From a virus: a stretch of 20,416 nt of DNA. The position numbers and the translations under genes are program-made. The notes below the pieces were generated by a model. It searched no databases. It saw nothing but the letters and a program-made list of their open reading frames with translations, and was not told where the DNA came from. The DNA lies in IMG/VR virus record IMGVR_UViG_3300035183_000764, positions 1-20,416 of that record. One strand, given 5' to 3'. Positions 3,247 through 19,626 of this stretch are shown in pieces (the first letter of the stretch is position 1; every line of letters begins with the position of its first letter).

Positions 3247-3498
3247 ATGAAATTAATAGAATTTTATGCAACATGGTGTGGACCATGCAAAATACAAAAA
3301 CCAATAGTAGAAAAAATAAGTAAAGAATTTCAAATAGATGTTCAATATATTGATATTGATGAAGATCCAGGAATTGCGAATAAATATGAAATTAAAGCTG
3401 TACCATCAATTGTAATTTTAAATGATGAAAATAAAATGATAAAAAAATTAGTAGGATTACAAACAGCTTCAGTGTTGAAAGCAAATTTACAAGTTTGA
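3247..3498 (+). CDS. Mini-thioredoxin (dithiol-disulfide oxidoreductase)
   Basis: The product is an 83-residue soluble thioredoxin-fold protein that would reduce disulfides by thiol exchange in the host cytoplasm. Seen: active site W10-C11-G12-P13-C14-K15, the following helix, and the cis-proline loop A-V-P53-S-I before the next strand; no signal peptide. It is shorter than bacterial thioredoxins (about 105-110 residues) because the first strand and helix are missing, a size close to phage glutaredoxin-like proteins such as T4 NrdC (87), but the motif is the thioredoxin CGPC. The gene stands alone, with 441 nt of non-coding DNA before it and 363 nt after it, between the head and tail modules. 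Known: phage thioredoxins can feed electrons to ribonucleotide reductase, and host thioredoxin is the T7 polymerase processivity factor. Which role applies here is unknown. Confidence 0.9.
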   Translation: MKLIEFYATWCGPCKIQKPIVEKISKEFQIDVQYIDIDEDPGIANKYEIKAVPSIVILNDENKMIKKLVGLQTASVLKANLQV

Positions 3499-4430: not shown

Positions 4431-7400
4431 TTAATCTGTAAAACTAACACTACCTCTTGTTAATTCAAAGGTAGTTTCAATAAACTCAAGAGATTCTGTT
4501 GGTTGAATAATAATTTTTCCTCTAATAACGCGATTTTCTTTATCTAATTGTGTTGTAGTTAAGTTATTGATAAATACTCGATATCCATCAAGACCACCAA
4601 GATCTTGAATTTCTTTCAAAACAGGTTCAACAAGTTTTGAAAATTCTTGTAAAAGAGTATCTGTATATTGCTCAAACAATGTAGACTTAGAAATTAGACG
4701 AATTCTTCTTCTGAGTGTGAGTAACAACCTACGGACGTTGATTCTTTCGAGAGAAGAAACACTTGCATTAACAGTTTTCTGTCCCCAAACTTTAACTCCT
4801 TCACCGCTGAATGCAGTAATTGGATTAATTTTTTCTGGATATAAATCATCAAGATTTTCTTGTCTAAGTGTTATTGCAGTTCTATCTACTGTAGATAATG
4901 CACCACGAGTAAAGCCTGCTGGCGCAAACCATGAATAACCGACAAGATCATTTAGTCCATATGCACCGAGAACAGCAACAGAAGGTGGCACTCTAACAGA
5001 AATTTTGTTATAAGAATCTTGAATTATTACATCTGGGAAATATGTTGCAGCATAACTTGAATCAAGACCTCTGTTTCTAAAATTTATAATTGTTTGAGAA
5101 ATTGATACATCTTGTGTATCACTTGTTATGGTATTACCATTTATATCTTTTTCTTCAAGGTCAAAGATATAGAAAATATCATTGCGTGATCTTGTTGCAA
5201 TGTCAATTGCAGCATCTGTAATTATTTCATGGCGAATACCAGGAATTACGAACAATCTACCATCAACTTCTGTAGGATCAGCAACTAAATCTAAAGATTT
5301 TCTATAAGCCTTTACTGTTGGCCCATTAGAGAAACCCCTATTAGAAGAATTCATTTCTTCAACAATTGCTTTATTTGTTAGATATTTTGTATCTAAGTCA
5401 AAGATTCTAACTCCATCAAATCCTCCATAAAAGTAACATGTAAATTTAGCAACTGCTCTTGTTACTGGATCAATTAGGTCACTTAATTGTAAGCCTCTTG
5501 TCAAAGCTGAAATATTTGTTGCGATATTTCCTGCACGAACATATGACCAATCTTTAATCTTACTTGTATTTGGCAAACCATTTGAAGAATTATAGTAAAT
5601 TTTAATTTTTTCTAAAGAGAAAAGATTATTATTAAATCTATCTGCATCTAAAATTCCATTTTCAAGTGTATCAGCAACACCTTCATTATTTTCAACTACA
5701 AAATTCATCCAATCAAGTTGAAAATTAGGGAAGTATTTTGTTCTTGAAACAATACTCTTATTAATAACTTTAGAACTGTTTGGTTCACTTGGAGAAACAA
5801 CATTTTCAAATTGAACACCCCAGTATAAGTTGCGGTCCGCAGTTTTTGTTGCGCCAGAGCCTTTTGATATGTTTAATCTGAAAGGAATAGGTGGTTCAAT
5901 AATTCTATTAAATGGATTTTGAGAAGTAAGATAAGTTGAATCGCTAAATGCTGGCATTGGAGCACTTCCAGAAGTTACTAAGTGTTGTGGGCCTCTGAAA
6001 CCCATTGGAAGTAAAACAGGATCAATTTCTCCATTATCAACTAGTTCATTCATTTCAACACGAATATAACGTGAACGTAGTTCATAGTTTCCAGTTTCGG
6101 TTAATCCTTGTTGTTCTTCAGCAATATCAAAATTGTAATAAATGTGTTTATCACCAATTTGTTTCGCAATGTATTTAGATGATTTTGGATTGAGTGTTAA
6201 ACCTCTAAAAGCTTCTAAGACAATTTTATTACTATCAGTATCATTAAAATCTCTAACTATAACGTCAAATGTACCATATGGATTTACATCATTTGTTGAT
6301 GGAGAAATATTTTCGATACTAACTTTAACTGGATTTTGTTCTCCATCTGTTATAAGATGGAATCTGAATAAGTTTTGATACAATCCACCTTGACGCTGAG
6401 AAATGAACCATGGTGTATGAGCAGCACGATAACGATCTTCAAAAGATTCATAATTTGGAGCAAAAGTAGACCCGCTATTTCTAGCCATTGCACCTGTAAC
6501 TAAAAAGGCAATATCTTCACGAATACCACCACTTACGGCTGTAACAATTCCAGAGCCTGTTGGGACCGCAAGAGAACTATTTACATCATAATAAGAATAT
6601 AAAACATATCCAGCTTCTTCTAATTTTAATGGATCTTTATTTAAAACTGTTCCAAGATAATTTGGAGCAGATGGATCAAATGAAGCTGTTACAGCTCTTG
6701 GATAAGAACTGCTTAATCCTTTGTGCCCATTTAAAAGAATTACAAATTCTTGTGATCCTCCTGAAAGATATACTGTTCCAGTGATAGCACCACGAATTGT
6801 TCCTGCTGAAAAATCAGCAGATGTTGATGCATCTGGAATTGATGAATTTGGTCCTTTTGATGTTGAAAGGGTTGGAATGACACCAGAGGCAGCCATTATA
6901 ACACCACGAAGAATTGATTGGCCAAACCCATTTAATCCAGCATCAGTAAAAATAGTAGAACCATTACTTTCTGACATATAACATCCTAGAAAATATGTTC
7001 TACCAACTGTTCCTACTGCTGTTGGAGCGGAAGAAAAAGCATTAGCATAAGCATTATTTCCAAGTGCTCCTGATAAGCTTGATTGCGGTTGTCTATCTCC
7101 AACAACAAAACCTGCACTGGTTACTTTACCACGATTATTCCCGCTATCTGTTCTTTGTGTGCCATCTCCAACACCTAAAACTCTTATTTGAGTTAAAGCT
7201 TGTTGAGTTCTAAACCATTCTGTTGCAGCAAGAGCTCCATAATTAATATAAGCTTTTGGAACACCAAAAAGAGTTCTCCAATCTTTTAAAGTTGGAACTA
7301 AAACTGGTACGAATGCTGGTCCCATTTGTGTTGTAGAAATTACAACTGCGGGCAATCCAGAAGGTAATATTGAAGTGCCACCGCTTACATCAATTTCTTT

Positions 7401-7439
7401 TATATTTACACCAGGACTTCTAAAAGTTAATTCTGCCAT
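4431..7439 (-). CDS. 18: Tail sheath protein B (gp18-like, second copy)
   Basis: This 1002-residue protein is one of two contractile sheath paralogues. Seen: N-terminal F-R-S-P-G-V-N-I-K-E-I-D (sheath linker start) with Q-M-G-P-A-F-V-P-V (about 38-46); VIVRDFNDTD (about 390); FYGGFDGVRIFD; the conserved V-A-V-L-G-A-Y-G-L-N-D to A-G-F-T-R-G-A-L block (about 823-850); and the sheath C-terminal domain with N-R-V-I-R-G-K-I-I-I-Q-P-T-E-S-L-E-F. Each block has a counterpart at the same relative place in sheath A, so the pair arose by duplication. Both are far longer than T4 gp18 (659), with large surface insertions between the conserved ends. The ATG at 7439 has AGGA about 14 nt upstream. An intrinsic terminator lies immediately upstream, so this gene depends on read-through or an unseen promoter. 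The tube gene follows after 80 nt. Confidence 0.92.
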   Translation of the reverse strand: MAELTFRSPGVNIKEIDVSGGTSILPSGLPAVVISTTQMGPAFVPVLVPTLKDWRTLFGVPKAYINYGALAATEWFRTQQALTQIRVLGVGDGTQRTDSGNNRGKVTSAGFVVGDRQPQSSLSGALGNNAYANAFSSAPTAVGTVGRTYFLGCYMSESNGSTIFTDAGLNGFGQSILRGVIMAASGVIPTLSTSKGPNSSIPDASTSADFSAGTIRGAITGTVYLSGGSQEFVILLNGHKGLSSSYPRAVTASFDPSAPNYLGTVLNKDPLKLEEAGYVLYSYYDVNSSLAVPTGSGIVTAVSGGIREDIAFLVTGAMARNSGSTFAPNYESFEDRYRAAHTPWFISQRQGGLYQNLFRFHLITDGEQNPVKVSIENISPSTNDVNPYGTFDVIVRDFNDTDSNKIVLEAFRGLTLNPKSSKYIAKQIGDKHIYYNFDIAEEQQGLTETGNYELRSRYIRVEMNELVDNGEIDPVLLPMGFRGPQHLVTSGSAPMPAFSDSTYLTSQNPFNRIIEPPIPFRLNISKGSGATKTADRNLYWGVQFENVVSPSEPNSSKVINKSIVSRTKYFPNFQLDWMNFVVENNEGVADTLENGILDADRFNNNLFSLEKIKIYYNSSNGLPNTSKIKDWSYVRAGNIATNISALTRGLQLSDLIDPVTRAVAKFTCYFYGGFDGVRIFDLDTKYLTNKAIVEEMNSSNRGFSNGPTVKAYRKSLDLVADPTEVDGRLFVIPGIRHEIITDAAIDIATRSRNDIFYIFDLEEKDINGNTITSDTQDVSISQTIINFRNRGLDSSYAATYFPDVIIQDSYNKISVRVPPSVAVLGAYGLNDLVGYSWFAPAGFTRGALSTVDRTAITLRQENLDDLYPEKINPITAFSGEGVKVWGQKTVNASVSSLERINVRRLLLTLRRRIRLISKSTLFEQYTDTLLQEFSKLVEPVLKEIQDLGGLDGYRVFINNLTTTQLDKENRVIRGKIIIQPTESLEFIETTFELTRGSVSFTD

Positions 7440-7474
7440 TCTTTAATTTTCCTATTATCAATGGTAATTACGAT

Positions 7475-7516
7475 AAAAAAATAAAACGCACCTCTAATAT
7501 ACTTAGAAGTGCATTT
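7475..7516 (-). terminator. Intrinsic terminator between the two sheath genes
   Basis: Positions 7484-7497 pair with 7503-7516 (core GCACCTCTAA with TTAGAAGTGC, two G-U pairs on the transcribed strand) around a 5-nt loop. On the - strand the hairpin is followed by GTTTTATTTTTTTA, a good U-tract. It lies 29 nt past the sheath A stop and 36 nt before the sheath B start. The + strand side is also T-rich. It probably attenuates transcription into sheath B and the tube gene. Confidence 0.82.
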
Positions 7517-7544
7517 ATTTTTTGTTTTTAAAGAAATATTATGT

Positions 7545-10500
7545 TTATGTTATAAGGAATGTACCAGATCTTGTGATTACAAAATCAAGTACAACATATT
7601 CAAGAGATTCAATTGGTCTTACTTTTATTGAAACATTAATTTTGTGATTTTCTCTATCTACATCTGTATTGTTTGTGTTATCACAAACAACCTGGAAGGC
7701 ACTAATTGCCTTAGCTTGTTGCAAGATTGAAAATCTATTTTCAAGAGCTCTTTTAAGATTTTCTCTTAATGCAGGAGTTTGATTTTCAAAAATAAATGGA
7801 TAACCAATATTAGCAAGCATTCTAGAAATTTCGATTGAAAGACGTTTAATATTTATTCTTGAAGTAAGAACATTTGAACCTTGTTTAAGAGTAAATTGAG
7901 AATAAAGAACATAAAGACCTTCATCTTTAATAATTGGATTTATTCTTGTATCACTGAATACATTTTTATCTTGAGCTTTTGTTTTTTGAGAAACTGCTTT
8001 AACAAAAGTAAGTGCTCCACGATTTAAACCAGCAGCGGCATACCAAGGGTATGTTACTCTATCATTAAATCCAAAAGCAGCTAAAGCTGCAACTGACGCA
8101 GGAACAACTGTTCGTTTTTCATTTAATGGATCTTCAATTGTTACAGATGGGTGATAAACCGCCACTGCTCCATTATCAATTGCTCTTGAATCAAAAATCT
8201 GAGCAGTTTTTTGATTATCAATAAATCTGTTTATTTCTCCATCAAAAATTCTGATTGAATCACTATCATATACTGGAATATCCATGATATAAAAAGCTCT
8301 TCCAAAGTCTGCAACTTTTTGAGCAGCATAATCTGTTACAAGTGGTTCTCTTTGACCTGGGAGGACCATAATATACATTGGAGATGTAAGTGGATCTGTA
8401 ATAATTCTTATTGCCGTTTTATAGCTGTTTACTTGATTGTTTGCATCACCAACACCATTCATATTAGAACTGAATCCTGGTGAAATATAGTTTGAAGAAG
8501 CGCCGCCATATCCAGCAACACCTGATTCAATTGAAGTCGATCTATCTGTAAATTTTCTAGCTTCTTTATCAAGAATATTTACCCCATCAAATCCGCCATA
8601 GAACATTGTAGTAAATTTACTATACTCACTAAAACGGTTAAATTCTGCTGCTGTACCTTTTTGTAAAACTGAAGCTAATGTTATTCTTGCTCCTATTGTA
8701 CCATCTGTAATGGTATAATTTGTTCCATCAGGAACACCATTTCTAATATAAGCTGAATCTTTTAGGATAGAAGTAACAGAAGCTGTAAGATCAGCAACGG
8801 TAGTTGTTGGAAGAACTACTTTAGAAAGAGAAAATTTATTATTATTAAATGTGTCTACAAAAGAACCAGTAAAAAGAGTATCAAGTTTTGATATACCAAG
8901 TAGTTTACCATAACTTGGAATAAGTTCATTTTTTTCACTTATAATATTTGTATTTGTAACTTCTGTATTACGTTCAAATTTAATACCCCAATATAATCTT
9001 CCGTCAACAATTTCAGTTGTTCCTGCTTGACCTGTGTAAGCAGCAACTGAAGAAACATCTCCTCTAGTTATTTTGAATCTAAAAGGAATTGGAGGAACAA
9101 TTGGAGAACCAGCAATTGAACCAGAAGATGCAATTCTTGTTGTCCCACTTGAATCTGTTATTTCATCAGCTGTTTTTAGAGTTGGAATTCCTTTAAAACC
9201 AAATGGTAAGCACTTGGCAGGCAAAGTTTTTGTCGCAACACCATCAGAAACTCTTACCCTTATAAATTTTGATTTGTTAGGATATGTTCCTGTAATATTT
9301 ACTCCACGATCATTTTCATCTTCAAAATCAAATCTATATTCTGCTTTAATATCACCAATTATTTTAGCAATATAACGATCTGAGTCTTTATCTAAATTTA
9401 CATTTGTAAATTGTTCTAATATTTGTGGATTAAAATCAGTATCATTAAAATCTCTAACAATAACAGTAAATGAACCATATTCATTTAAAGGATCAGAAGA
9501 AGCTTTCAAACCCGCAATAGAAATTTTAACCATTCGGTTTGCGTTATCGCCGTCAGAAATTGTTTCGAAGTTAAAGAGATCATATTCGATATTGCCAAAA
9601 GGTTGTGAAATAATCATTGGTGTTTTTGGCGTCGAATATCTTGTGTCAAATCTCCCAAACAAGTTTCTAAATGGAGAATTTGTAATTCCACCATTAGAGG
9701 TTGTTGCTGCTGAACCTGAAATAATAGCAACGCTGTTTACGTTAGATGCACCACTTGCGATTGCTGCAATTTCAGCATCAACTGGGAAATCAGCGTAAAG
9801 ATAGTGTCCTTCTTGGAAGAATTTATCAGGATTTGTATTTAATATTTTGCTAAAATAATCACTATCACTTGGGTTAAATGAAGCGGTTAAGATTTTAACG
9901 CCAGGGGAACTATCGGTTGAAGAAAAACTTGCACCTAAACTTGTTGAAACAACAAGCTTAAATTTTCCTTTTGTTACACTATTTGAACCGCTATCTATTG
10001 AAGCAATATCGTCAACTAAGTCTGAGAAAGATTCACCAGTCCCATCTAGTACCATTATACGGGAACCAGAAGAACATAAAATCATTCCTCTTACAAGATT
10101 TACATATCCACTACCAGCATTATAAGAATCATTATCAGTGAAAATTGGAAACCCATATGATTCTTTTGTTGTTAGGGCATGTTTACCAACTAAAAATTGG
10201 ACAGATCCATTGTGGCGAAAATCCCCAGGAATTCCAACTTGAGATCCAGAAACAAAGAAACCTGCATTTTTAACAATTCCTTTTGTTTTGGTGTCATTAA
10301 AATCTCCAGAATTACTGTTTGCTCCAGCTCCTAGTAACCTGACAATTACAGCGCTATTTCTATTTTCTAGCCATCTTTGCGAAGCATAAGTTGCTGGATA
10401 GCCTGGAGTAACTGGTCCAAACTTCGCGATTTGATCAGATAAAGATCCAATAATAGTTGGTACAAATGCTGGTCCTTGAACCATTGCGCCAACAATTGCA

Positions 10501-10589
10501 GCTGGATTACCTGTTGGAACAGTGTCTCTTATCGAAGCATCTATTTCGCTGTCACTGTATCCTGGAAATTTTAAAATTGTTTCTGTCAT
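7545..10589 (-). CDS. 18: Tail sheath protein A (gp18-like, first copy)
   Basis: This 1014-residue contractile tail sheath protein is a paralogue of the gene that follows it. Seen: N-terminal F-P-G-Y-S-D-S-E-I-D with V-Q-G-P-A-F-V-P-T (about 38-46); VIVRDFNDTD (about 375) followed by R-Y-I-A-K-I-I-G-D; FYGGFDGVNILD; A-S-V-A-A-L-A-A-F-G-F-N-D with A-A-G-L-N-R-G-A-L (about 828-857); and a C-terminal domain with R-P-I-E-S-L-E-Y. The conserved ends build the contractile core in T4-type sheaths; the less conserved middle is expected on the outer surface. AAGGA lies about 6 nt before the ATG, the best ribosome site in this operon, and it is the first of the two sheath genes transcribed, so it may be the more abundant sheath. 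The gp15-like gene ends 84 nt upstream, and an intrinsic terminator follows. Confidence 0.92.
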   Translation of the reverse strand: MTETILKFPGYSDSEIDASIRDTVPTGNPAAIVGAMVQGPAFVPTIIGSLSDQIAKFGPVTPGYPATYASQRWLENRNSAVIVRLLGAGANSNSGDFNDTKTKGIVKNAGFFVSGSQVGIPGDFRHNGSVQFLVGKHALTTKESYGFPIFTDNDSYNAGSGYVNLVRGMILCSSGSRIMVLDGTGESFSDLVDDIASIDSGSNSVTKGKFKLVVSTSLGASFSSTDSSPGVKILTASFNPSDSDYFSKILNTNPDKFFQEGHYLYADFPVDAEIAAIASGASNVNSVAIISGSAATTSNGGITNSPFRNLFGRFDTRYSTPKTPMIISQPFGNIEYDLFNFETISDGDNANRMVKISIAGLKASSDPLNEYGSFTVIVRDFNDTDFNPQILEQFTNVNLDKDSDRYIAKIIGDIKAEYRFDFEDENDRGVNITGTYPNKSKFIRVRVSDGVATKTLPAKCLPFGFKGIPTLKTADEITDSSGTTRIASSGSIAGSPIVPPIPFRFKITRGDVSSVAAYTGQAGTTEIVDGRLYWGIKFERNTEVTNTNIISEKNELIPSYGKLLGISKLDTLFTGSFVDTFNNNKFSLSKVVLPTTTVADLTASVTSILKDSAYIRNGVPDGTNYTITDGTIGARITLASVLQKGTAAEFNRFSEYSKFTTMFYGGFDGVNILDKEARKFTDRSTSIESGVAGYGGASSNYISPGFSSNMNGVGDANNQVNSYKTAIRIITDPLTSPMYIMVLPGQREPLVTDYAAQKVADFGRAFYIMDIPVYDSDSIRIFDGEINRFIDNQKTAQIFDSRAIDNGAVAVYHPSVTIEDPLNEKRTVVPASVAALAAFGFNDRVTYPWYAAAGLNRGALTFVKAVSQKTKAQDKNVFSDTRINPIIKDEGLYVLYSQFTLKQGSNVLTSRINIKRLSIEISRMLANIGYPFIFENQTPALRENLKRALENRFSILQQAKAISAFQVVCDNTNNTDVDRENHKINVSIKVRPIESLEYVVLDFVITRSGTFLIT

Positions 10590-10673
10590 ATTTTCCTTGA
10601 AAACCTTTCAATGAATTTTTAATTCTAACATAATTATTTCGAAGTTTTCAGGAAACTCGTTTTTTAATGAATT

Positions 10674-11984
10674 TCACTCATCTGAAATAAAATTGATTAA
10701 ATCATCTATATTCGAGGCGCTATAAATCTTTTCTTTACTTTCTCGATTAGGCAATACCTCAGCGTAGATTCTTTCATTCTTTTTAGTAAGATTATTTTTT
10801 ATAACTTTTTCAAAATAAAGATTTTCTTCTAGTGTTTTATCCTTTTGATCATTTGGATCAGAAAGATCACTTAATAAAAATTTATCTTGAGATTGTTTAT
10901 TTCCAATAGCTTCAATTTCTTTTTTTAGATAAGTTTTTGTATTTGAATCTTTTATTGTAAAATCAAATGTAACTGAGGTACTATATTTTTTAATAGGGTA
11001 CATGTTTGTTTCATCATTTGGAGTTAATAAAAACGCCTTAACAGTAAGATCAAGTTTTGTCTTAACAATTTTTTCATTTTCTGAATAATCATCGAAATTA
11101 TCTTCCATGGAAATTTCATCACCTAGATATGCACAAAACCAATATCCAGCATCAGTTGTTAAAACAAAACCATTATCCAATGGAAGTTTTGCTGAAAGAA
11201 TTGATTGTAATAATATATTCATTGAATCAATATTTTCTGTCCAAAGAACGATTTCGTATGAAACATCAACGAAAGTTGGAGCAGGCATTGATAAATATTC
11301 AATAATATTGTTATTTGTTTTTGGATCAAGTAAGCTGCCTTGTCTTATACTTAAATCATTTTTATTTCTTTTTTGCTTTCTTTTTGATGTAGGAATATTA
11401 TTTACAGATTTTAATCCAATTTTATTTATGAGATTTTGATAAAAAGGATCTTTTTCTTGATCTAAACTAACTTTGACAATAATTTCTCCTGTTGCGCTAC
11501 TTATACTTCTTGAATTTTGTATATTTAAAGAATGATTAATATTCAATCTTCGTATCGCTATAGAAGGTAAAACTAATACCCCATTTTGTCCCCTTATTGG
11601 AGTTAATTTTTTTGCTAAAGCAAAACGATCACCTCCAGCAACTTTTACTTCAGGTTTATTTATTGAAACTATTTTATTTGTTCCTTTAACATATTTTGTT
11701 GGAAATTTTATAGATTCATCAAAAAGTTTTTTTACACTTTGATCAATATCAAGTAAAGTACATGCTGGAACATAAACAGTCTCATATGCTGGATTTTCAT
11801 CTTGAAGGTTTCCAAAAGGAATTTGTTCAAGTCCTGGTACAGTTTCCGATGGAGGCTGAATATTTTGACGTGTTATATTTCCTTTAGTTCCATCAATAAA
11901 TCTTTCAGGAACAGGTATTTCAGGCTGAAAATTATATGATTCGTTTTCTTGATTTCCAAGACGTGTTACTTTACCAGTAGTCAT
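10674..11984 (-). CDS. Probable tail completion/sheath-terminator protein (gp15-like)
   Basis: This 436-residue protein would cap the tube and sheath at the head-proximal end. Seen: VLVLPSIAIRRLNINHSLN (about 135-153) resembles the T4 gp15 segment ILPRINLHLVDFSYN, and P-A-P-T-F-V-D-V-S-Y-E-I-V-L-W-T-E-N-I-D-S-M (about 235-256) resembles its IKMIYELSIFTRYEDDM, a strand-helix pair of the gp15 fold. The order of both blocks is conserved. The protein is longer than T4 gp15 (272), with a proline-rich N-terminal extension and a Lys/Asp-rich C-terminus. Its position, after gp13- and gp14-like genes and before the sheath, is that of gene 15 in T4. The assignment rests on motif resemblance plus gene order; a different connector protein is possible. 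The stop is TGA at 10674. Confidence 0.65.
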   Translation of the reverse strand: MTTGKVTRLGNQENESYNFQPEIPVPERFIDGTKGNITRQNIQPPSETVPGLEQIPFGNLQDENPAYETVYVPACTLLDIDQSVKKLFDESIKFPTKYVKGTNKIVSINKPEVKVAGGDRFALAKKLTPIRGQNGVLVLPSIAIRRLNINHSLNIQNSRSISSATGEIIVKVSLDQEKDPFYQNLINKIGLKSVNNIPTSKRKQKRNKNDLSIRQGSLLDPKTNNNIIEYLSMPAPTFVDVSYEIVLWTENIDSMNILLQSILSAKLPLDNGFVLTTDAGYWFCAYLGDEISMEDNFDDYSENEKIVKTKLDLTVKAFLLTPNDETNMYPIKKYSTSVTFDFTIKDSNTKTYLKKEIEAIGNKQSQDKFLLSDLSDPNDQKDKTLEENLYFEKVIKNNLTKKNERIYAEVLPNRESKEKIYSASNIDDLINFISDE

Positions 11985-12018
11985 TTAAATTTCTACATTT
12001 AAATATTAGAAATAAACT

Positions 12019-12735
12019 TTAGTCATAGAAATCATCATCAACATTATCATCATTTAAGAATGAGTTAGGCACAATTTTTTCTTCACCATTTTCTGATATT
12101 GTATCATTTATTCCTATTACTCTTGGTCCTTCATTTAAAGTTTTTGGAGCCATATCATCTCCAAGACGTTCACGTATTTCTCTAATATCATTAGTCGGAC
12201 CTTCTTTAGTTTGTTTGAAACCACGTTGTTGCACAAATTCTTTTTGAATTCCATCTTTGTTGCTTTCAGAAGAAGGTATTCCAAATGCTGAAGGATCAAA
12301 TCTTCCTGGCCTTGCTGTCATACATATTGCTTTAAAAGCTCTATCGTATTCTTCCTGTCCCCACATATTATTCGTTGGAGCATATGATATTATTTCATAT
12401 ACATTATTACCATATGTAATAAAATCACCTTCAGAAAGTTTTATTTTCTTTAAAAATAAATCTCTTGATTGAAATAAAATTTCTATTTTGCCACGTAAAT
12501 AAGAGCCATGAGAATCCGTAATGTTTTCCCATTCTGCTTGTCCACATAACGCATCAATTATAATTGGTCCATCAAAAACCTTTTCAATTGCCTCATCATA
12601 AGTTTCATTCATAACTGAATTTGTTCTAGAAATAGAATAGTAATAAACTTTCTGACCAATTACATCTTTAATAACTTCTTGAGTTATGTCCGTGTGATAT
12701 TGTAATTCTTTTTCAGTTATAAAAAGTCGTGCCAT
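12019..12735 (-). CDS. Probable neck protein (gp14-like)
   Basis: This 238-residue soluble protein lies between the gp13-like and gp15-like genes. Seen: a helical start, then Q-K-V-Y-Y-Y-S-I-S-R-T-N with Y-D-E-A-I-E-K-V-F-D-G-P-I-I-I (about 28-60), which looks like the beta-barrel connector pattern; E-G-D-F-I-T-Y-G-N-N-V-Y-E-I (about 101-114), a typical barrel strand pair; and an acidic, probably disordered tail. Known: T4 gp13 and gp14 form the neck that joins head and tail and are encoded side by side before gp15. The 4-nt gap to the upstream stop indicates coupled expression. No close homology is recognised from sequence alone; the name rests mainly on gene order and size (T4 gp14 is 256 residues). 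Confidence 0.55.
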   Translation of the reverse strand: MARLFITEKELQYHTDITQEVIKDVIGQKVYYYSISRTNSVMNETYDEAIEKVFDGPIIIDALCGQAEWENITDSHGSYLRGKIEILFQSRDLFLKKIKLSEGDFITYGNNVYEIISYAPTNNMWGQEEYDRAFKAICMTARPGRFDPSAFGIPSSESNKDGIQKEFVQQRGFKQTKEGPTNDIREIRERLGDDMAPKTLNEGPRVIGINDTISENGEEKIVPNSFLNDDNVDDDFYD

Positions 12736-12739
12736 ATTA

Positions 12740-14047
12740 TTATCTGACTCTAATTACTACTTGTGGGGGATATGGTAAAAGAGATAAAATTTTATTAGTT
12801 TGTTCAATTTTATTTGCCTCTTTTTCCATAAGTTTATCATAACTTAATCCATCTAAATATTCTCTAGCTGTAGTTTTAAGTTTTTCTATTCCATCGCTAG
12901 CATAACTCAATAATTTTTCTCCGTTTAGTGTAAGTTCTGCTCCTGGAATGGGTACAACATTTGTTTTTGAACGAATCCATCCAAGAGTTTCAGCACATAA
13001 ATAAAGCGAATATTCCCTAATCCAATTTCTACACCATATATTTAGACTATCATAATTTACAATTCCAAATGGCACATTTGCAGGGTTTGAAACACCATAC
13101 AAATTAGCAGCAAAGTTATATGTTCCACCTGGGCCACTACCTAGATGCAAACCAGATCCTAAAGAAGAACTTGATTGAACAAAATTAGAATTCATTCTTG
13201 GGTCATATGGAGGCTGTTTAAATCCAACTCTAACCCAAACTCTGCGTACAGAACCTGAAGCCATAAAATCTCCAACGCCTGGAACTGGATATAATCTTAA
13301 ATTTCTTCCAAATTGTTCATAAGAATAATGAGATCTTCTTATTCTTCTTGCATCTTCATAAAGTCCAGCTCTTAAAACATCTTCATAGAGAGGAAGAATG
13401 AAATATTTTGTGTCTGGAATTGCGATTCCTGCTTCTGTTGTAAAATCAGAACCATAAGCTATGGTAGAACCATAATTTGAATTAAAAATATATTCTGCAG
13501 GTTCAAAATGGAATACTTCATAAACAGTAAATCTAACATTTGAACCAGATGTTTGATATCCAAATAAAGGATTACCAGCTTCATCTTTAAGCTCTGTATA
13601 AAGATCATAATCTTGACGACTAGCAGTTAAAATAATTGAACCAGAATAAGATTCAGCCCAGTTTCCAATTCCTATATAACCAGTATATGGACCTGATATG
13701 GAATCTAAAAAATTTAAATTTTGTTGTACATATGTATTTGATAAATTAACAGAAAATAATCCATTTGAGCCAGAAATATAACTTCCAGTAGGAGAACCTA
13801 AAAGAGATGCAAGATTACTTTTTGCTTGATATTCAACAAGAAGTGCATTTAATTGCATAGTTGCTTCTTCAAAAGCATTCCAAATTATTTTTTTTGTAAG
13901 TTCAACACTTAAAACTTGTTCGCCAAATTTTGTTAAAACAAATCTAACAAGATTATCTGCATCGGATTGAAACAGCGGAGAACTGTCATATAATCCATAG
14001 GATGTTGGTCTTATTGTTTGATTAAAGCCGCTTCCAATTGATGTCAT
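12740..14047 (-). CDS. Probable neck protein (gp13-like)
   Basis: This 435-residue protein is first in the neck-to-tube run. Seen: an N-terminal helical part with V-E-L-T-K-K-I-I-W-N-A-F-E-E-A-T (about 49-64); a Gly/Ser/Tyr-rich beta section (about 85-190); the helix D-V-L-R-A-G-L-Y-E-D-A-R-R-I-R-R (about 218-233); and a long C-terminal helical region with L-N-I-W-C-R-N-W-I-R-E-Y, V-P-I-P-G-A-E-L-T-L-N-G and a Lys/Glu-rich coiled stretch. The V-P-I-P-G-x-E-L-T-L-N-G plus helix arrangement recalls connector/neck proteins of T4-superfamily phages. Placement before gp14- and gp15-like genes supports gp13. T4 gp13 is shorter (309). No strong ribosome site precedes the ATG. A TATAAATT box on this strand lies 45 nt upstream. 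Confidence 0.6.
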   Translation of the reverse strand: MTSIGSGFNQTIRPTSYGLYDSSPLFQSDADNLVRFVLTKFGEQVLSVELTKKIIWNAFEEATMQLNALLVEYQAKSNLASLLGSPTGSYISGSNGLFSVNLSNTYVQQNLNFLDSISGPYTGYIGIGNWAESYSGSIILTASRQDYDLYTELKDEAGNPLFGYQTSGSNVRFTVYEVFHFEPAEYIFNSNYGSTIAYGSDFTTEAGIAIPDTKYFILPLYEDVLRAGLYEDARRIRRSHYSYEQFGRNLRLYPVPGVGDFMASGSVRRVWVRVGFKQPPYDPRMNSNFVQSSSSLGSGLHLGSGPGGTYNFAANLYGVSNPANVPFGIVNYDSLNIWCRNWIREYSLYLCAETLGWIRSKTNVVPIPGAELTLNGEKLLSYASDGIEKLKTTAREYLDGLSYDKLMEKEANKIEQTNKILSLLPYPPQVVIRVR

Positions 14048-14056
14048 TTTAACAGT

Positions 14057-14064
14057 TATAAATA
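14057..14064 (+). promoter_or_regulatory. Candidate late promoter box for the isolated + strand gene
   Basis: TATAAATA is an exact match to the T4 late promoter -10 element and points at the + strand gene starting at 14138, 73 nt downstream. It lies in the gap before two diverging genes. Chance matches are common at this base composition, so confidence is limited. Confidence 0.4.
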
Positions 14065-14091
14065 TAACAGGAAAACATAAGCAATTGTTTT

Positions 14092-14099
14092 AATTTATA
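14092..14099 (-). promoter_or_regulatory. Candidate late promoter box for the neck/tail operon
   Basis: On the - strand, TATAAATT (7 of 8 to the T4 late box) lies 44 nt upstream of the gp13-like start. It faces the + strand box at 14057-14064, so the two candidate transcripts would overlap by a few tens of bases at their 5' ends. Confidence 0.3.
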
Positions 14100-14137
14100 A
14101 ATCATTAATAAGAAATAACTTTATAGTTAAACTTGTT

Positions 14138-14866
14138 GTGGCGAATTTTAAGCTTAAAAAAATAAAAGATGAACCAATTGGGAAACTTATAAGACCAATT
14201 AAACTTTATAAAGGCTTTATATTTCCAAATGAAATTAAGAAAAATAAAAATTTCTCTGAATGGTTTTCTTCTAGTGTTAGGCTTCAATGTAGATTTCAGT
14301 CAACAAAAGAGGCTGTTACTTCTTATAAAATTTTTTCAAAATCACTTGATAAAAATATTATAAAGCAATATAAAGAATTAAGTTTAAACGATACTATAGA
14401 TCATAATAAAATTTTAAATGGTTATGCCGCAGAAATTACAGGTTTTATTTATTTTTATAAAAAAGAATATCATCTTTGCAAATCAAAAAAAGAAGAGGCC
14501 GCAATAATAAAAAAAATAAAAAATGGCAACATCAATATTTTATTTGTTATTGTTAAATTATATAAAAATGTTGATCTTAAAAAAGAAAAAGGACTCGAAG
14601 AATGGGATTACCATTCCACCGAGTCCTTTGAATTAATATATCCAGTAAAACAGACTATTTTATTAAATTATATTTTAAAAATTGAATCTGTAATGCCTGG
14701 TCAATCTCTAAAGTCAACAAAACAAGAATATATTGTTTTATCAAAGGAAAGAAAAGATAATTTAAATATTATCTACAATTCGCTAAGTTTTTATAAAATT
14801 TTCTGCCTTGGACAACATCTAATGAAAAATGTAAATTTTAATACATATTATTCTATATTAGATTAA
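14138..14866 (+). CDS. Isolated + strand gene of unknown function
   Basis: The 242-residue product is not recognised. Seen: Lys-rich (basic) N-terminal third, mixed helix/strand pattern, several Cys (such as C51, C114, C225), no signal peptide, no clear membrane segment, and no HNH, GIY-YIG or helix-turn-helix motif. A frame this long free of stops in such AT-rich DNA is unlikely by chance, and no competing - strand frame is present. The start is GTG at 14138, since the in-frame upstream sequence has no ATG, GTG or TTG before a stop at 14078; the ribosome site is weak. It is the only + strand gene between two - strand operons and ends 11 nt before the convergent stop of the small gene at 14878. 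A strong hairpin that looks like a - strand terminator is embedded at codons for residues about 148-164. Its codons are more A/T-rich than those of the structural genes, suggesting separate acquisition. Confidence 0.75.
   Translation: MANFKLKKIKDEPIGKLIRPIKLYKGFIFPNEIKKNKNFSEWFSSSVRLQCRFQSTKEAVTSYKIFSKSLDKNIIKQYKELSLNDTIDHNKILNGYAAEITGFIYFYKKEYHLCKSKKEEAAIIKKIKNGNINILFVIVKLYKNVDLKKEKGLEEWDYHSTESFELIYPVKQTILLNYILKIESVMPGQSLKSTKQEYIVLSKERKDNLNIIYNSLSFYKIFCLGQHLMKNVNFNTYYSILD
14579..14629 (-). terminator. Terminator of the baseplate-dnaJ unit, inside an opposing gene
   Basis: AAAGGACTCG (14588-14597) pairs with CGAGTCCTTT (14620-14629); inside, GAATGG (14600-14605) pairs with CCATTC (14611-14616) over a GATTA loop. 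The two stems are separated by AA and CAC. On the - strand the hairpin is followed by TTTTTCTTTTTT, a good U-tract; on the + strand only TTT follows before GAATTAAT. It therefore suits - strand transcripts coming from the gene ending at 14878, some 250 nt upstream in that direction. Confidence 0.75.
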
Positions 14867-14877
14867 TTCTAATTTGG

Positions 14878-15132
14878 CTAGGCTTGAACATCAGAGGATT
14901 CAATTAAATCAGTTAGTTCCTTAACTTGTTTATTATAAACATCAACATAAGAAGGAGTTAAAACTAACTTACCATCCATTCCTTGTTGATCGCTCTCCTC
15001 AACACGAATCATTCTAAAATGGTCAACAACATTTGTTTGTGTGGCCATCGCTACACAAATTAAATTTGCTAATTGCCCAATTAATTGATCAGAAAGTTTG
15101 TATTCTTTTTTTGTTGCTTCTTGTTTATCCAT
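14878..15132 (-). CDS. Small conserved-looking protein downstream of DnaJ, unknown
   Basis: The 84-residue product is not recognised. Seen: a charged start, a helix with L-I-G-Q-L-A-N-L-I-C-V-A-M-A (hydrophobic and helical, probably a packing helix rather than a membrane anchor because of its polar residues), a beta segment with K-L-V-L-T-P-S-Y-V, and a second amphipathic helix (Y-V-D-V-Y-N-K-Q-V-K-E-L-T-D-L-I). The ATG at 15132 is preferred: GGAA lies 5 nt upstream, and it follows the dnaJ stop by 10 nt. An in-frame TTG at 15153 would add seven residues and overlap dnaJ, but has no better ribosome site. The tight coupling suggests co-expression with DnaJ; a small tail-assembly or adaptor protein is possible but unproven. 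Confidence 0.75.
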   Translation of the reverse strand: MDKQEATKKEYKLSDQLIGQLANLICVAMATQTNVVDHFRMIRVEESDQQGMDGKLVLTPSYVDVYNKQVKELTDLIESSDVQA

Positions 15133-15142
15133 GATATTCCAA

Positions 15143-16135
15143 TTATAAACCAAGTTTCTTTAAATTGTTTAACAAATTTTTTTGTTCTTCAGTTAAAGAA
15201 GTTGGAAATTTTGGTTTGATATTGATTTTAAGTGGTAACCTTGTTCCTTTATGGGGAAAGCCTCGATTCTCAATTAACACATAAGAATCTCCAGTTTTTG
15301 TTTCAAATTCAAAATCTCCCAATCCATCTTCTAAATTTAATTTAAATTTTCCACCTAGTAGATAATCAGAAACAGAAACAGAATATTCAGTTGACAAAAT
15401 TCTTTGTTCATTGAAAAATTCAACTTTCATGAATTCAGGAATAATTGTTTGAACTTTAACTAAAAACAAATAATCAATTCCTTGAATTTTTCTAGCTATC
15501 TTTTTTCCTGTTGGGTTACAACTTTCAAACTCTAATTCTTCATTTAGAGTATATGAAATATTTCCTTTTCCTTTACACTCTTTACATTCATGCAATTCTT
15601 TTTTTGATCCACCACAAACATGACAGGTTATTGTTTGTCGAAAAAATCCAAAAATTTCTTTTCTTTCAACTGTTTTTACACCCTTTCCATCACATTCTTT
15701 ACAAGAAATAGAAGAAGGAACAACCCCATTTCCATTACATGGAAAACAATTTAACTCAAGTTTATAATTTAAATTTTTCTTACAACCAGAAATTGCTTCA
15801 GCAAATGTTAATTTGATTGGGTTTGGTATCTCAGCTTGAATAATTGATGGTTGTTGATATCTAGTTTGAAACCTAGAAAACAAACCAGAGAAAAAATCTG
15901 AAAATCCTCCGAAATGTTCATTTTGTTGTGAAGTACCATATGACCCATCTTTAATTGAATTATAGGCATTTTGAATTTTTTTAAATTGTTCTTCAGCTTC
16001 TTTTTGTTTTTCTGGTGATTCCGCTGCAAATCTATCTGGATGATATTCAAAACATTTTTGTTTATATGCCTTTTTTAATTCTTCTTCACTGCAATCAGAA
16101 GAGACACCTAGAATTTCATACGGATTATTTTCCAT
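15143..16135 (-). CDS. dnaJ: Type I DnaJ/Hsp40 co-chaperone
   Basis: This 330-residue J-domain protein would deliver clients to a DnaK-type Hsp70 and stimulate its ATPase. Seen: J domain (residues 4-65) starting N-P-Y-E-I-L-G-V, with the invariant H32-P33-D34; a short G/F segment (about 71-90); the zinc-binding domain with four CxxC pairs at 130/133, 145/148, 171/174 and 184/187, three in the CxxCxGxG form and the third (CHVCGGSK) lacking the last Gly; and a C-terminal substrate-binding domain with R-G-F-P-H-K-G and a terminal T-E-E-Q-K-N-L-L helix. All type I domains are present, although the protein is about 45 residues shorter than E. coli DnaJ (376), mainly in the G/F linker. No DnaK or GrpE is in the window, so host Hsp70 is the likely partner. 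GGAG lies 6 nt before the ATG, next to a hairpin. It sits between the hub-like gene and a small unknown gene. Confidence 0.95.
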   Translation of the reverse strand: MENNPYEILGVSSDCSEEELKKAYKQKCFEYHPDRFAAESPEKQKEAEEQFKKIQNAYNSIKDGSYGTSQQNEHFGGFSDFFSGLFSRFQTRYQQPSIIQAEIPNPIKLTFAEAISGCKKNLNYKLELNCFPCNGNGVVPSSISCKECDGKGVKTVERKEIFGFFRQTITCHVCGGSKKELHECKECKGKGNISYTLNEELEFESCNPTGKKIARKIQGIDYLFLVKVQTIIPEFMKVEFFNEQRILSTEYSVSVSDYLLGGKFKLNLEDGLGDFEFETKTGDSYVLIENRGFPHKGTRLPLKINIKPKFPTSLTEEQKNLLNNLKKLGL

Positions 16136-16143
16136 GTTTTGCT

Positions 16144-16202
16144 CCAGTCATGTTACTGGTAACCACTGCTAGACCGCGTGTCAAGATGCCTTATTGCACG
16201 CG
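16144..16202 (-). promoter_or_regulatory. GC-rich structured junction between hub gene and dnaJ
   Basis: About 55% G+C over 16141-16204, against roughly one third around it. Two hairpins are visible: CCAGT/ACTGG (16144-16159, 6-nt loop), whose CC/GG base overlaps the dnaJ ribosome site GGAG, and CGCGTG/CACGCG (16175-16180 with 16197-16202), whose 16-nt loop holds the hub stop codon. No U-tract follows either. It could tune dnaJ translation relative to the hub gene or be a scar of cassette insertion. Confidence 0.5.
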
Positions 16203-19200
16203 CCTATTTGAGTTTGATCTAGAAACATCATCAAGTTGTACAGCAAAGGCGTTAACTTGATCGATAAATGAACGATATTTTCCATATCCATCATAAAAAA
16301 CAAGTTTAATATCTGTTTTAAATTCTCCTTGAGTTATTGTATGACTAAGCCCATTAACAACATAAATATTATCAACAGTAGTTCCAGTCTGAAAATCTAC
16401 AAAAATTCTTTGCGCGAAATTAACAAGTGTATTTCCAAAACAGTTAATATTTAATTCGGCAGGAATAATTTGAATAGGTAATCCACCAGGCTGTTCTCCA
16501 TTTGCTCTTTGTGGGTTTGCGTTTGTACTTCGTATCATATTAACAGATGATAAAGCTGGATCATTTTGTGAAGTGAGATTTGCTGTTTGAATTGTAGTAC
16601 CTGCACAACCATATATGATATATGGCATTGTTTTCATTATAAATTCTTTGAGCTTTCCTTGACTTCCAACAAATTTATAATAAGAATATCTGCCATCAGG
16701 ATTTAATTCTCGTCTCGAAGGATTTATCCTTTCTATTATTCCATTCCTAATTGCACTATTAATAATTTGTTCAATTTGTTGTTTTTGAGCTTGTCCAATT
16801 ATAGAATTTTGATTTGTAGAATCAGCAGTAATAGTTGAAAATGCAGAAAGTGTATTGTCTCTAGCTAATTCTAAAATACTTCCTAGTCCTTCATATTGGG
16901 AAGCTTGTTTATCATAGACATGAATTCTCAAAATTGTTTTAGAATTATCTAGTGACTCTTCAGTAGAGTTCGGATTAAAATTTTTTCTTGGAACACTTTC
17001 TATATAAAGATCTATGGTTGGTTGTTTAAATGTTCCATCTGGAGTTATGTTTCTTAAACGTTCACTTATTTCAGTTTGCAGTCTTACAGCATCAAACCTA
17101 GCAGTTGTTTGAGCTTGATTTGTATCTCGATTTATTGTTTTTTCATAAAAATCATCAATTCCATAAACTGGTGCAGCTGGATCATCTATAATTGTTGATT
17201 GAATAAATTGCATAAATTCATTTAAATTAACATTTGCCGCGCGTGAAACAGATTCCATTCTAAACCGAAAATATTGCTCAATCATAAATCTTAAATCAAT
17301 CATAAATTGACCAGTATGAAGAAAACGTGCATAACCTGCATAATTGTTAAAAGGATAAAAAATAAATTGAATCTCATCATAATTTCCAGTAGAAGCTAAT
17401 GGTTGTCCAATAAAAGTCATTAGCAACTTTCCAAGAGAAACTTGTTCATTATCAAACTCATTTAAAATATTGTTTGAAATTGTTTGTCCAGGAACGGTTT
17501 GTTGTCGTTGATTTGCTCCTTGTCCGCTTCTTAATACCCTTCTAAATCTTTCTGAACGTTTTCTAACAGGCGCACCTTGTATTCTGTTATCTGGTAATTC
17601 AAAACCAAATGGATAAAATGGATCATATCCTTCTTTAAGAATAGAAAACTGCTGCCTAATATCAGATTGAATTGAATTAGATAATTGTTCTAAAGCAGAT
17701 GTTTGTGTTGTTTGAGAACCTCTTCTTGAATTTCTATTTTGATTTATTGTTTGAAATAATGATGTTAAAGAATCTAACAATATAGAAACATCTCTGTTTC
17801 TTGAAGAAATTGGCCCAAGACTTCGTTTAAGTTCTCTTATTTGATTTATTATTTCAGGAGAAAGCCTTATATTAGATTGAATATCTGAAGCTGCGTCTAA
17901 TGCTTGTATGCCTCTAATTTCTCTTGTGTTGTTTTGTCCACTTTGATTTGGTAACGCTTGTCTAAATCTTGAAATAATGTCACTTAATTCTTGAATTCTT
18001 ACAATAGATTGACGAGTTGCTTCAGATGCGGTTGCTATATTAGCTGTATAAATATCTGTTCCTCCTTTAGTAAACAATTCAAGAGTTATATTTACTTGTC
18101 CAACTTCATCAAAAGTAAATTGAACATTTTTTATACCATATTTTTCTTTTATTCTTGTTGAATTAAATAAATCAGCGTAAGCATTATTCATTTCAGGTCC
18201 ATCTGGATGTGACCATCCATATTCAACCATTAATTCTGTTGTTCCATATAAATCAGGTTTAACTAAATCTGCAATTTCACTTAATCGACTTCTATCATGT
18301 AGAACAAATTCCATTTTTGCTGTTTTAAATGAAAATAATCCAACAGAAGGGGCAACATCAATTGTTAACTGCTTAAAACTTAAAAATGGACGAAATTTAT
18401 CAATTACTGAAGTTGATCTTAATTCATATTCTTTTGTTGAACTATTTAATCTATTATATCTTGGATTGGGAATGTCTGCATTAACCATTGTCTGTGGAGA
18501 AGTGAAAAGTTCCATTCCAGCAATTGCAAGATTTCCCGTATCATTTCTTGCACCTTCTATTCTTCCTTCGATTTGATTTCCTCTTGTTAATAACGCTAAA
18601 GTTGAATTATCTTTTACTTTTATTGCTCCTTCTAAAAATTTAAAAATAGAAGGGGCTGACAAATTTCCATCATAATCTGCTGTAGGTTTTCCAAACATAA
18701 ATTGGACGTCAAGATAAGGAATAAGCCTTGCCAGTTCAATGTTTGGTATTCCATTAAATAAAATCGAAAGACCTTCTGTATCTTTGGCAGATGGAGCAAT
18801 GTTTGGTGAAAATATTTCAATTGCTGAAAGTTTTTTTACAATGTTATCATCGTCTTGTTTTTTTAACATTTCTCCTATATCTGCAATAGAGAACTCATTT
18901 TCATTTAGTTTTGAGCTATGATGTAATTTTATGAAATTACTAAGTCTAGTCTGAAGATCAGTTGCTGTAGAACTTCTTGTATAATATACTAAGGCAGTAT
19001 GTAAATCATTTTGTGAAGATTCTGGATATTCTGTTGGTGGGGTTGAAACTATTCCAAAACCATTTATTGTTCCTCTTGCTCCAGTAGCATTACGATTTCT
19101 AACCTCATCAATAATTGGTAAAGCTCCCTCTCTTGTGTTAATAACAAGATCAACAATTTTTGATTCTACTTGTGATGGCTGAATAGCACTTTCAATATTT

Positions 19201-19337
19201 CTTTCGTTGATTGAAATTCCTTGAAGTTGTTCTAAAGCTATTGCAGAAGATAAATCTCTTGCGCTAAGAATACCAAAATAAGGTGCTAATTTTTGCACAG
19301 CTCTATAGTAATAAACTTTATCTAATTTTTTAACCAT
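16191..19337 (-). CDS. Large baseplate/hub-like structural protein
   Basis: This 1048-residue protein is probably part of the central baseplate. Seen: a helical N-terminal third; F-S-F-K-T-A-K-M-E-F-V-L-H-D-R-S-R-L (about 335-352) followed by T-T-E-L-M-V-E-Y-G-W-S-H-P-D-G (366-380), beta-rich; a Gln/Asn/Ser/Arg-rich low-complexity region (about 470-640); and a C-terminal I-Y-V-V-N-G-L-S-H-T-I-T-Q-G-E-F-K-T (991-1008), which resembles the closing strands of gp27/gpD-type hub domains (V-x-x-H-x-I-x-x-G-x-Y-x-T). Neighbours support a baseplate role: a LysM protein starts the preceding position, as P2 X (LysM) lies near D, and a beta-rich structural gene lies beyond. The ATG at 19337 follows the LysM stop by 7 nt, without a strong ribosome site, suggesting coupling. 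No lytic enzyme motif is visible. Another baseplate wedge protein is the alternative. Confidence 0.6.
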   Translation of the reverse strand: MVKKLDKVYYYRAVQKLAPYFGILSARDLSSAIALEQLQGISINERNIESAIQPSQVESKIVDLVINTREGALPIIDEVRNRNATGARGTINGFGIVSTPPTEYPESSQNDLHTALVYYTRSSTATDLQTRLSNFIKLHHSSKLNENEFSIADIGEMLKKQDDDNIVKKLSAIEIFSPNIAPSAKDTEGLSILFNGIPNIELARLIPYLDVQFMFGKPTADYDGNLSAPSIFKFLEGAIKVKDNSTLALLTRGNQIEGRIEGARNDTGNLAIAGMELFTSPQTMVNADIPNPRYNRLNSSTKEYELRSTSVIDKFRPFLSFKQLTIDVAPSVGLFSFKTAKMEFVLHDRSRLSEIADLVKPDLYGTTELMVEYGWSHPDGPEMNNAYADLFNSTRIKEKYGIKNVQFTFDEVGQVNITLELFTKGGTDIYTANIATASEATRQSIVRIQELSDIISRFRQALPNQSGQNNTREIRGIQALDAASDIQSNIRLSPEIINQIRELKRSLGPISSRNRDVSILLDSLTSLFQTINQNRNSRRGSQTTQTSALEQLSNSIQSDIRQQFSILKEGYDPFYPFGFELPDNRIQGAPVRKRSERFRRVLRSGQGANQRQQTVPGQTISNNILNEFDNEQVSLGKLLMTFIGQPLASTGNYDEIQFIFYPFNNYAGYARFLHTGQFMIDLRFMIEQYFRFRMESVSRAANVNLNEFMQFIQSTIIDDPAAPVYGIDDFYEKTINRDTNQAQTTARFDAVRLQTEISERLRNITPDGTFKQPTIDLYIESVPRKNFNPNSTEESLDNSKTILRIHVYDKQASQYEGLGSILELARDNTLSAFSTITADSTNQNSIIGQAQKQQIEQIINSAIRNGIIERINPSRRELNPDGRYSYYKFVGSQGKLKEFIMKTMPYIIYGCAGTTIQTANLTSQNDPALSSVNMIRSTNANPQRANGEQPGGLPIQIIPAELNINCFGNTLVNFAQRIFVDFQTGTTVDNIYVVNGLSHTITQGEFKTDIKLVFYDGYGKYRSFIDQVNAFAVQLDDVSRSNSNRRVQ

Positions 19338-19344
19338 CTTAAAA

Positions 19345-19626
19345 TTAAGTAATAAGATTAATATCTTCCAAATTTGGAATTATGATAACAGTACCAGGAG
19401 GAACCTGTAAGCAATTACCAATATTTGAAGCCGCTGCAAGTATATCATATTTTAATGAATCCCCATAATATTGAGCAGCAATTGTGTCTAATCGTTCTCG
19501 TCCAGTTAAAATATGTACTTCATAACGTATTTGATTTGTTTCAATAGCTTTTCTAATTTTTGGAGCAAATTCAGAAGTGCCATATTGAATACCAAAATTT
19601 AAAAGTGGTGTTTTATCATATCTCAT
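19345..19626 (-). CDS. LysM-domain baseplate protein (gp53/gpX-like)
   Basis: The 93-residue product consists of a short N-terminal part and a LysM-like domain (about 36-86). Seen: E-R-L-D-T-I-A-A-Q-Y-Y-G-D (44-56), the helix after the first strand, then a second helix and the closing P-P-G-T-V-I-I-I-P (76-84) strand, the typical LysM signature. Known: small LysM proteins recur in contractile-tail baseplates (P2 X, LysM-containing gp53 of T4), where they bridge hub and tube or wedge rather than bind peptidoglycan. Its ATG overlaps the stop of the preceding gene (ATGA at 19626-19623) and the large hub-like gene follows after 7 nt, so the three are translationally coupled. There is no signal peptide, arguing against an envelope enzyme. 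Confidence 0.8.
   Translation of the reverse strand: MRYDKTPLLNFGIQYGTSEFAPKIRKAIETNQIRYEVHILTGRERLDTIAAQYYGDSLKYDILAAASNIGNCLQVPPGTVIIIPNLEDINLIT

Follow-up and report, generated by a model that had tools for sequence, protein, structure and literature searches.

A divergent class A DnaJ at a junction between virion modules of a T4-related phage, with a predicted promoter of its own

The stretch of viral DNA analysed here (20,416 nucleotides; IMG/VR record IMGVR_UViG_3300035183_000764; hereafter, the window) encodes a DnaJ that, in the reading we cautiously favour, would act as a general or host-directed recruiter of DnaK, made early from a promoter of its own, rather than as a chaperone dedicated to the baseplate. 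Judging from the sequences, what appears to be new is a divergent clade of class A DnaJs together with an early-type promoter-like element inside a late block. Phage DnaJs are listed in several surveys, with roles that are mostly open, and among the published cases that we found only one, Rki of phage RB43, has been tested (see below). The locus offers a small and tractable system, with a single divergent class A J-protein, relatives in whose contigs no DnaK was found, a predicted promoter that sets dnaJ apart from the neighbouring late genes, and conserved neighbours; it also calls for caution in deducing function from position, as a gene may be part of the early programme even when it lies among structural genes. 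An initial annotation of the window, which had read the gene as part of the baseplate operon and its product as a dedicated folding or assembly chaperone, is partly supported.

Results and discussion

The window encodes a class A DnaJ with a modified J-domain and linker

The dnaJ gene (15143–16135; 330 aa) is read on the minus strand, from 16135 to 15143, the plus-strand frame being riddled with stops, and is preceded by a GGAG ribosome-binding-like site (16142–16145, minus strand). The initial annotation had placed the gene, its HPD motif (residues 32–34) and its four CxxC pairs correctly, leaving the strand unstated. Pfam DnaJ matches residues 4–63 (15947–16126, minus; E = 1.2e-16), with the HPD at 16034–16042 (minus) as also seen in alignments, and DnaJ_CXXCXGXG matches residues 130–191 (15563–15748, minus; E = 6.4e-10). 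The Cys pairs of this zinc domain (130/133, 145/148, 171/174 and 184/187) comprise eight residues that are invariant in an alignment of 14 phage DnaJs. Pfam DnaJ_C falls under its cut-off (18.8 bits vs 26.6 required); the remaining C-terminal client-binding body (residues 192–330; 15146–15562, minus), with a helix at its end, was recognized from an AlphaFold2 model and Foldseek. The model, built from the 14 phage DnaJ sequences, has a mean pLDDT of 83, low mainly at residues 70–93 of the linker, and a pTM of 0.51, so that the relative placement of the domains is uncertain. Its top Foldseek matches are class A DnaJs, namely Streptococcus pneumoniae DnaJ (6jzb; E = 7.8e-18), DNAJA2 (7zhs; 9.7e-17) and Ydj1 (1nlt; 1.1e-13). 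Of the features of class A, the HPD J-domain, the four-CxxC zinc domain and, in the predicted fold, the C-terminal client-binding domains are present. The analysis confirms that the ORF is a genuine class A DnaJ, and bears out the earlier description of a complete type I protein.

The protein shares with the cellular class A DnaJs (6jzb; Ydj1, 1nlt) the HPD J-domain, the four CxxC pairs and the predicted fold of the body, but is only about 24–30% identical to them, is shorter (330 vs about 370–380 aa) and has a longer loop after the HPD. In the alignment, the helix IV/QKRAA stretch of a standard J-domain, found in the cellular proteins, is absent. The G/F-type linker (about residues 64–97; 15845–15946, minus), very short by comparison with theirs, has about 30 residues, rich in F and with few Gly, and is predicted to be disordered at residues 70–93 (pLDDT <50); the short linker reported earlier therefore stands. 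The third zinc motif does lack its last Gly in the window copy (CHVCGGSK), as had been noted, but since the L003 orthologue (see below) reads CEYCGGMG, the lack is, on the sequences compared, not a family trait. The best PHROG of the window DnaJ is phrog_14336 (E = 8.3e-26), where related phage proteins are already grouped; only its residues 3–198 are matched, whereas the L003 orthologue matches the family almost end to end.

dnaJ lies at a junction between virion modules

The gene upstream of dnaJ (16191–19337, minus) codes for a 1048-aa protein that has no match in Pfam, PHROG or the PDB and whose structure prediction reached a pLDDT of 30; a profile comparison with a 938-aa protein of immuto, a related Flavobacterium phage, was not significant. 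It is a candidate baseplate hub by position only. Next to it lies the gene for a gp53-like, LysM-type baseplate wedge protein of 93 aa (19345–19626, minus; phrog_7145, 3.3e-07; Phage_tail_X below threshold), and it is this adjoining gene, together with the gene order, that assigns the cluster to the baseplate. dnaJ stands at the 3′ end of the hub/gp53 cluster. It is followed by a small gene, conserved in place (14878–15132, minus; 84 aa from ATG, 91 aa from a TTG at 15153), by a convergent gene at the module junction (14138–14866, plus; 242 aa), and by the gene for an Ad2-like neck or head–tail adaptor protein (12740–14047, minus; 435 aa; phrog_211, 1.6e-4, with an immuto homologue), which opens the next virion block. 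Neither the small gene nor the convergent gene has a family match in Pfam, PHROG or PADLOC. The position of dnaJ is thus a junction between virion modules. The earlier placement inside a baseplate operon fits the gp53-like neighbour and the gene order, but dnaJ closes the cluster at the junction, and the large neighbour is baseplate-like by its position only. As dnaJ and the hub candidate gene are co-directional and 55 bp apart, with no terminator in the gap, late transcription of dnaJ is likely too.

Two independent relatives carry dnaJ orthologues at the same place. One phage is represented by contigs of 172 kb and 204 kb (L002/L004), with identical 23-kb loci and a DnaJ 65% identical to that of the window; the other is a 24.6-kb contig (L003; 44% identity). 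In both, dnaJ is flanked by the genes for the 1048-aa protein and the 84–91-aa protein, as in the window, and L003 has one more opposite-strand gene at the junction. A scan of viral contigs with a single protein gave no relative and one with a three-sequence alignment did, an alignment of 16 DnaJs being too diverse as a seed for a genome scan; short matches labelled as Listeria/Enterococcus phage were left out, these being unannotated records of 1.7–17 kb in which bacterial contamination is suspected.

NG86 estimates against L002 gave a dN/dS of about 0.20 for DnaJ, 0.24 for the convergent 242-aa protein, 0.13 for the small downstream protein and 0.03–0.10 for the neck, sheath, hub, gp53-like, p238 and p436 proteins; for DnaJ the values over the comparisons are about 0.2–0.3, all of these ratios being approximate as synonymous changes are near saturation, above all against L003. 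The ratio of about 0.20 against L002 places DnaJ under purifying selection. The protein is constrained, yet its rate of evolution is 2–7 times that of most neighbouring virion proteins.

We also considered whether dnaJ could be a passenger, captured recently from a host and without a selected function. Phages do acquire host chaperones, an example being the DnaK of moraphages, from Flavobacteriales (PMC12619734). However, three distinct copies, with intact motifs, occupy one place and show the constraint just described, and the searches found no cellular DnaJ whose main body is more than about 32% identical. A phylogeny with phage and cellular DnaJs, which the initial annotation had proposed, placed the window clade alone on a long branch (support 100/100); its only apparent neighbour, L016, is flagged as a long-branch join, and the cellular sampling is biased to NPYE-type DnaJs, with no Bacteroidota DnaJ in the tree. 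The low cellular identity and the isolated branch argue against recent acquisition from a host, and we regard a passenger gene as highly improbable.

A promoter-like element precedes dnaJ

A predicted promoter of dnaJ's own lies at 16156–16184 (minus strand), about 50 bp upstream of the gene in the gap after the hub stop: a −35 box TTGACA (16184–16179), a spacer of 17 nt and a −10 box TACCAG (16161–16156). The element is kept, though the spacers differ, as TTGACA-N17-TACGAG in L002/L004 and as TTGACA-N17-GATACT in L003; the −10 boxes of the window and of L002/L004 are imperfect, the usual last T being missing. To score it, a matrix was trained on 13 similar sites of the 204-kb relative, drawn from its tRNA/host-interaction region; none of these sites precedes a DnaJ gene. 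The dnaJ site took first rank both among the 40,760 positions of the window and in L003, and second rank in L004; at the 14 gene starts of the window dnaJ scored 14.0 and none of the other 13 exceeded 2.8, and shuffled sequence attains the score of the dnaJ site at 1.1e-5 per position. Independent support comes from the ranks in the window and in L003, since neither was used for training.

In the 204-kb relative, TTGAC-TANNNT with a GC-rich spacer occurs at 14 sites vs 3.4 in shuffles (maximum 7 in 20), the GC-rich-spacer subset having been picked after inspection; the unrestricted motif, TTGAC-N17..19-TANNNT, is not enriched (29 vs 36 in shuffles). The GC-rich-spacer sites lie mainly at 7–88 kb, where all 17 predicted tRNAs are located along with a TerD-like gene, an SPFH gene, an AAA/vWA gene pair and a sigma-70-region-2 gene. 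Matches to the T4-type late promoter motif TATAAATA were at chance level (3 vs 3.3 expected). Upstream of 13 other phage DnaJs no element of this kind was seen near the start, the sole match lying 128 bp upstream in L027, and this near-absence marks the element as a trait of the present lineage. On this evidence dnaJ is predicted to have its own promoter of host-sigma type.

Several features of the same relative are recorded here in passing. The phage is AT-rich, with about 33% GC, and its 7–88-kb region (L146–L150) carries predicted promoters of the form TTGAC-N16/17-TANNNT with GC-rich spacers. Promoters of this class are unlike those of Bacteroidota, whereas the capsid protein is closest to that of a Flavobacterium phage, which leaves the host uncertain. 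An AAA ATPase (469 aa) and a vWA plus metallopeptidase-like protein (493 aa) are encoded at L149:14020–19451, and the vWA gene carries the same promoter class as dnaJ. At L149:323–395, ARAGORN calls a tRNA with a CTA anticodon, labelled Pyl, a possible TAG suppressor.

The main rival to the favoured reading is a late role: dnaJ would be transcribed together with the hub gene, and its product, acting with host DnaK, would be dedicated to folding or assembling baseplate, sheath or neck proteins. We give this a lesser but appreciable probability. It draws on the shared strand and the distance of 55 bp between dnaJ and the hub gene, a position conserved in two relatives, on the virion genes that adjoin dnaJ in unrelated phages (L012, L059/L060), and on the prediction, in a jumbo-phage survey, that DnaJs of such phages help folding and assembly (PMC7824862). 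Against it stand the host-type promoter-like element, the module-junction position, the fast evolution of dnaJ, its presence in replication modules of several phage lineages (see below), and the case of immuto, which has the same virion genes without a DnaJ. By hmmsearch, the immuto stretches that were read hold homologues of the MCP, tube, sheath, neck, p238, p436 and gp53-like proteins, as well as of the protein upstream of gp53 and a core protein; no DnaJ was found in these stretches by hmmsearch, and tblastn of phage records lists none for immuto either. A dedicated assembly role, which the initial annotation had deduced from gene position, is therefore weakened by the promoter-like element, the junction with its fast-evolving accessory gene, the fast evolution of dnaJ and the immuto comparison. 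The protein that comes next after the immuto hub candidate, immuto35A_238, was considered as a DnaJ and ruled out.

Host DnaK as the likely partner

The three records of the relatives each contain one J-domain gene. The search for DnaK and GrpE genes proposed in the initial annotation, widened to GroES, found none of these genes in the three records, which include the long contigs of 172 kb and 204 kb; as the window is only a 20-kb piece, the absence is read from relatives' contigs whose completeness is not established. The two long contigs accordingly do not encode a complete phage DnaK/DnaJ/GrpE machine. As these long contigs lack DnaK, GrpE and GroES, a partnership with the DnaK of the host is likely, in line with the earlier proposal, and the DnaJ of the window phage most likely works with it.

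A partnership of this kind is known for the Rki protein of RB43 (gene 057w), which has an early promoter (TTGACA/TAAAGT) and early RNA and protein, binds and needs DnaK and gives a growth benefit (PMC3486835). It is a type III protein of 237 aa, with no generic chaperone activity (PMC3486835). Rki and the window DnaJ are both J-proteins of T4-related phages, with a TTGACA-type promoter of their own (here predicted) and a divergent helix IV, and no phage DnaK has been described in RB43 either (PMC3486835). Unlike Rki, which lacks a zinc domain and CTD homology, the window DnaJ has both and is thus not of type III; moreover, early expression and DnaK binding were measured for Rki and are inferred for the window DnaJ.

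The initial annotation had regarded a complete DnaJ as uncommon in phages. This was overstated: there are many phage DnaJs, in several genomic contexts, with published cases in jumbo phages (PMC7824862), moraphages (PMC12619734) and RB43 (PMC3486835). According to the first of these, DnaJ cochaperones are sporadic in jumbo phages, mainly in group 2.2, and are predicted to recruit host HSP70; the sections available give neither a promoter nor a genomic position for them (PMC7824862). A pair formed by a vWA/metallopeptidase and an AAA ATPase, like the MoxR–vWA pair of jumbo phages described there, is also present in the 204-kb relative; the likeness of the DnaJs is one of description (PMC7824862). 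Moraphages, like the present lineage, are large aquatic phages with a DnaJ; some also encode DnaK and Hsp20, whereas no DnaK was found in the window's relatives (PMC12619734). In two phages of 634–642 kb (LR756502 and LR745206; L059/L060), as in the window, a four-CxxC DnaJ is encoded near an Ad2 head–tail adaptor gene, but the DnaJs are 26–27% identical, and GrpE and DnaK are encoded by the larger phages themselves.

The genomic contexts of dnaJ vary among the phages surveyed. L012 belongs to another T4-like lineage, and its dnaJ stands immediately before a T4_baseplate (baseplate-hub) gene and an intein-carrying portal gene (10001–15217). In L015, dnaJ lies between RuvC-like and RecA/primase genes, and L011, L018, L019 and L022 join it by sequence likeness, which suggests a role in replication for the DnaJ of that lineage. 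Elsewhere dnaJ is found beside GrpE (L017, L059), after a ClpA-like gene (L016) or a few genes from DnaK (L020).

A phage J-protein could also serve in counter-defence, replacing or competing with host DnaJ so that a defence that senses through DnaJ/DnaK, such as bNACHT25, stays silent. bNACHT25 requires host DnaJ and its HPD function for phage sensing (PMC12169576), the same idea has been put forward for moraphage chaperones (PMC12619734), and both the fast evolution and the early-type promoter would suit a host-directed factor. Yet a mere decoy would have no use for the intact client-binding body, and there is no PADLOC match; we consider counter-defence very unlikely.

Proposed mode of action

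In the favoured reading, of a general or host-directed DnaK recruiter, dnaJ would be transcribed early by host RNA polymerase from TTGACA-N17-TACCAG (16184–16156), and read-through from the hub gene may provide a further, late supply. The HPD J-domain would dock on host DnaK, the body formed by the zinc finger and the CTD would hold unfolded clients, and the activity of host DnaK/GrpE would be steered to the benefit of the phage. Since the client-binding body is kept, unlike in Rki, DnaJ may fold phage proteins as well. In this scheme we infer the early timing, the partnership with host DnaK and the identity of the clients. A more elaborate version, which we think unlikely, is that a re-shaped DnaJ, made early, draws host DnaK away from host DnaJ, which would disarm DnaJ-dependent sensing or heat-shock control and, at a later stage, serve virion proteins as well. 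If this were true, the re-shaped DnaJ, with no helix IV and a minimal G/F linker, would be the full-body counterpart of Rki.

Other features of the window

Three further features of the window were recorded. The gene for an 83-aa thioredoxin (CGPC active site; 3247–3498, plus) has the major capsid gene on one side and the tail genes on the other, and no homologue of its product was found in the immuto stretches. The convergent 242-aa gene (14138–14866, plus) evolves fast and keeps its place at the junction in both relatives, L002/L004 and L003. Finally, two big tandem sheath paralogues, of 1002 and 1014 aa, are encoded at 4431–10589 (minus), and both match the single sheath of immuto.
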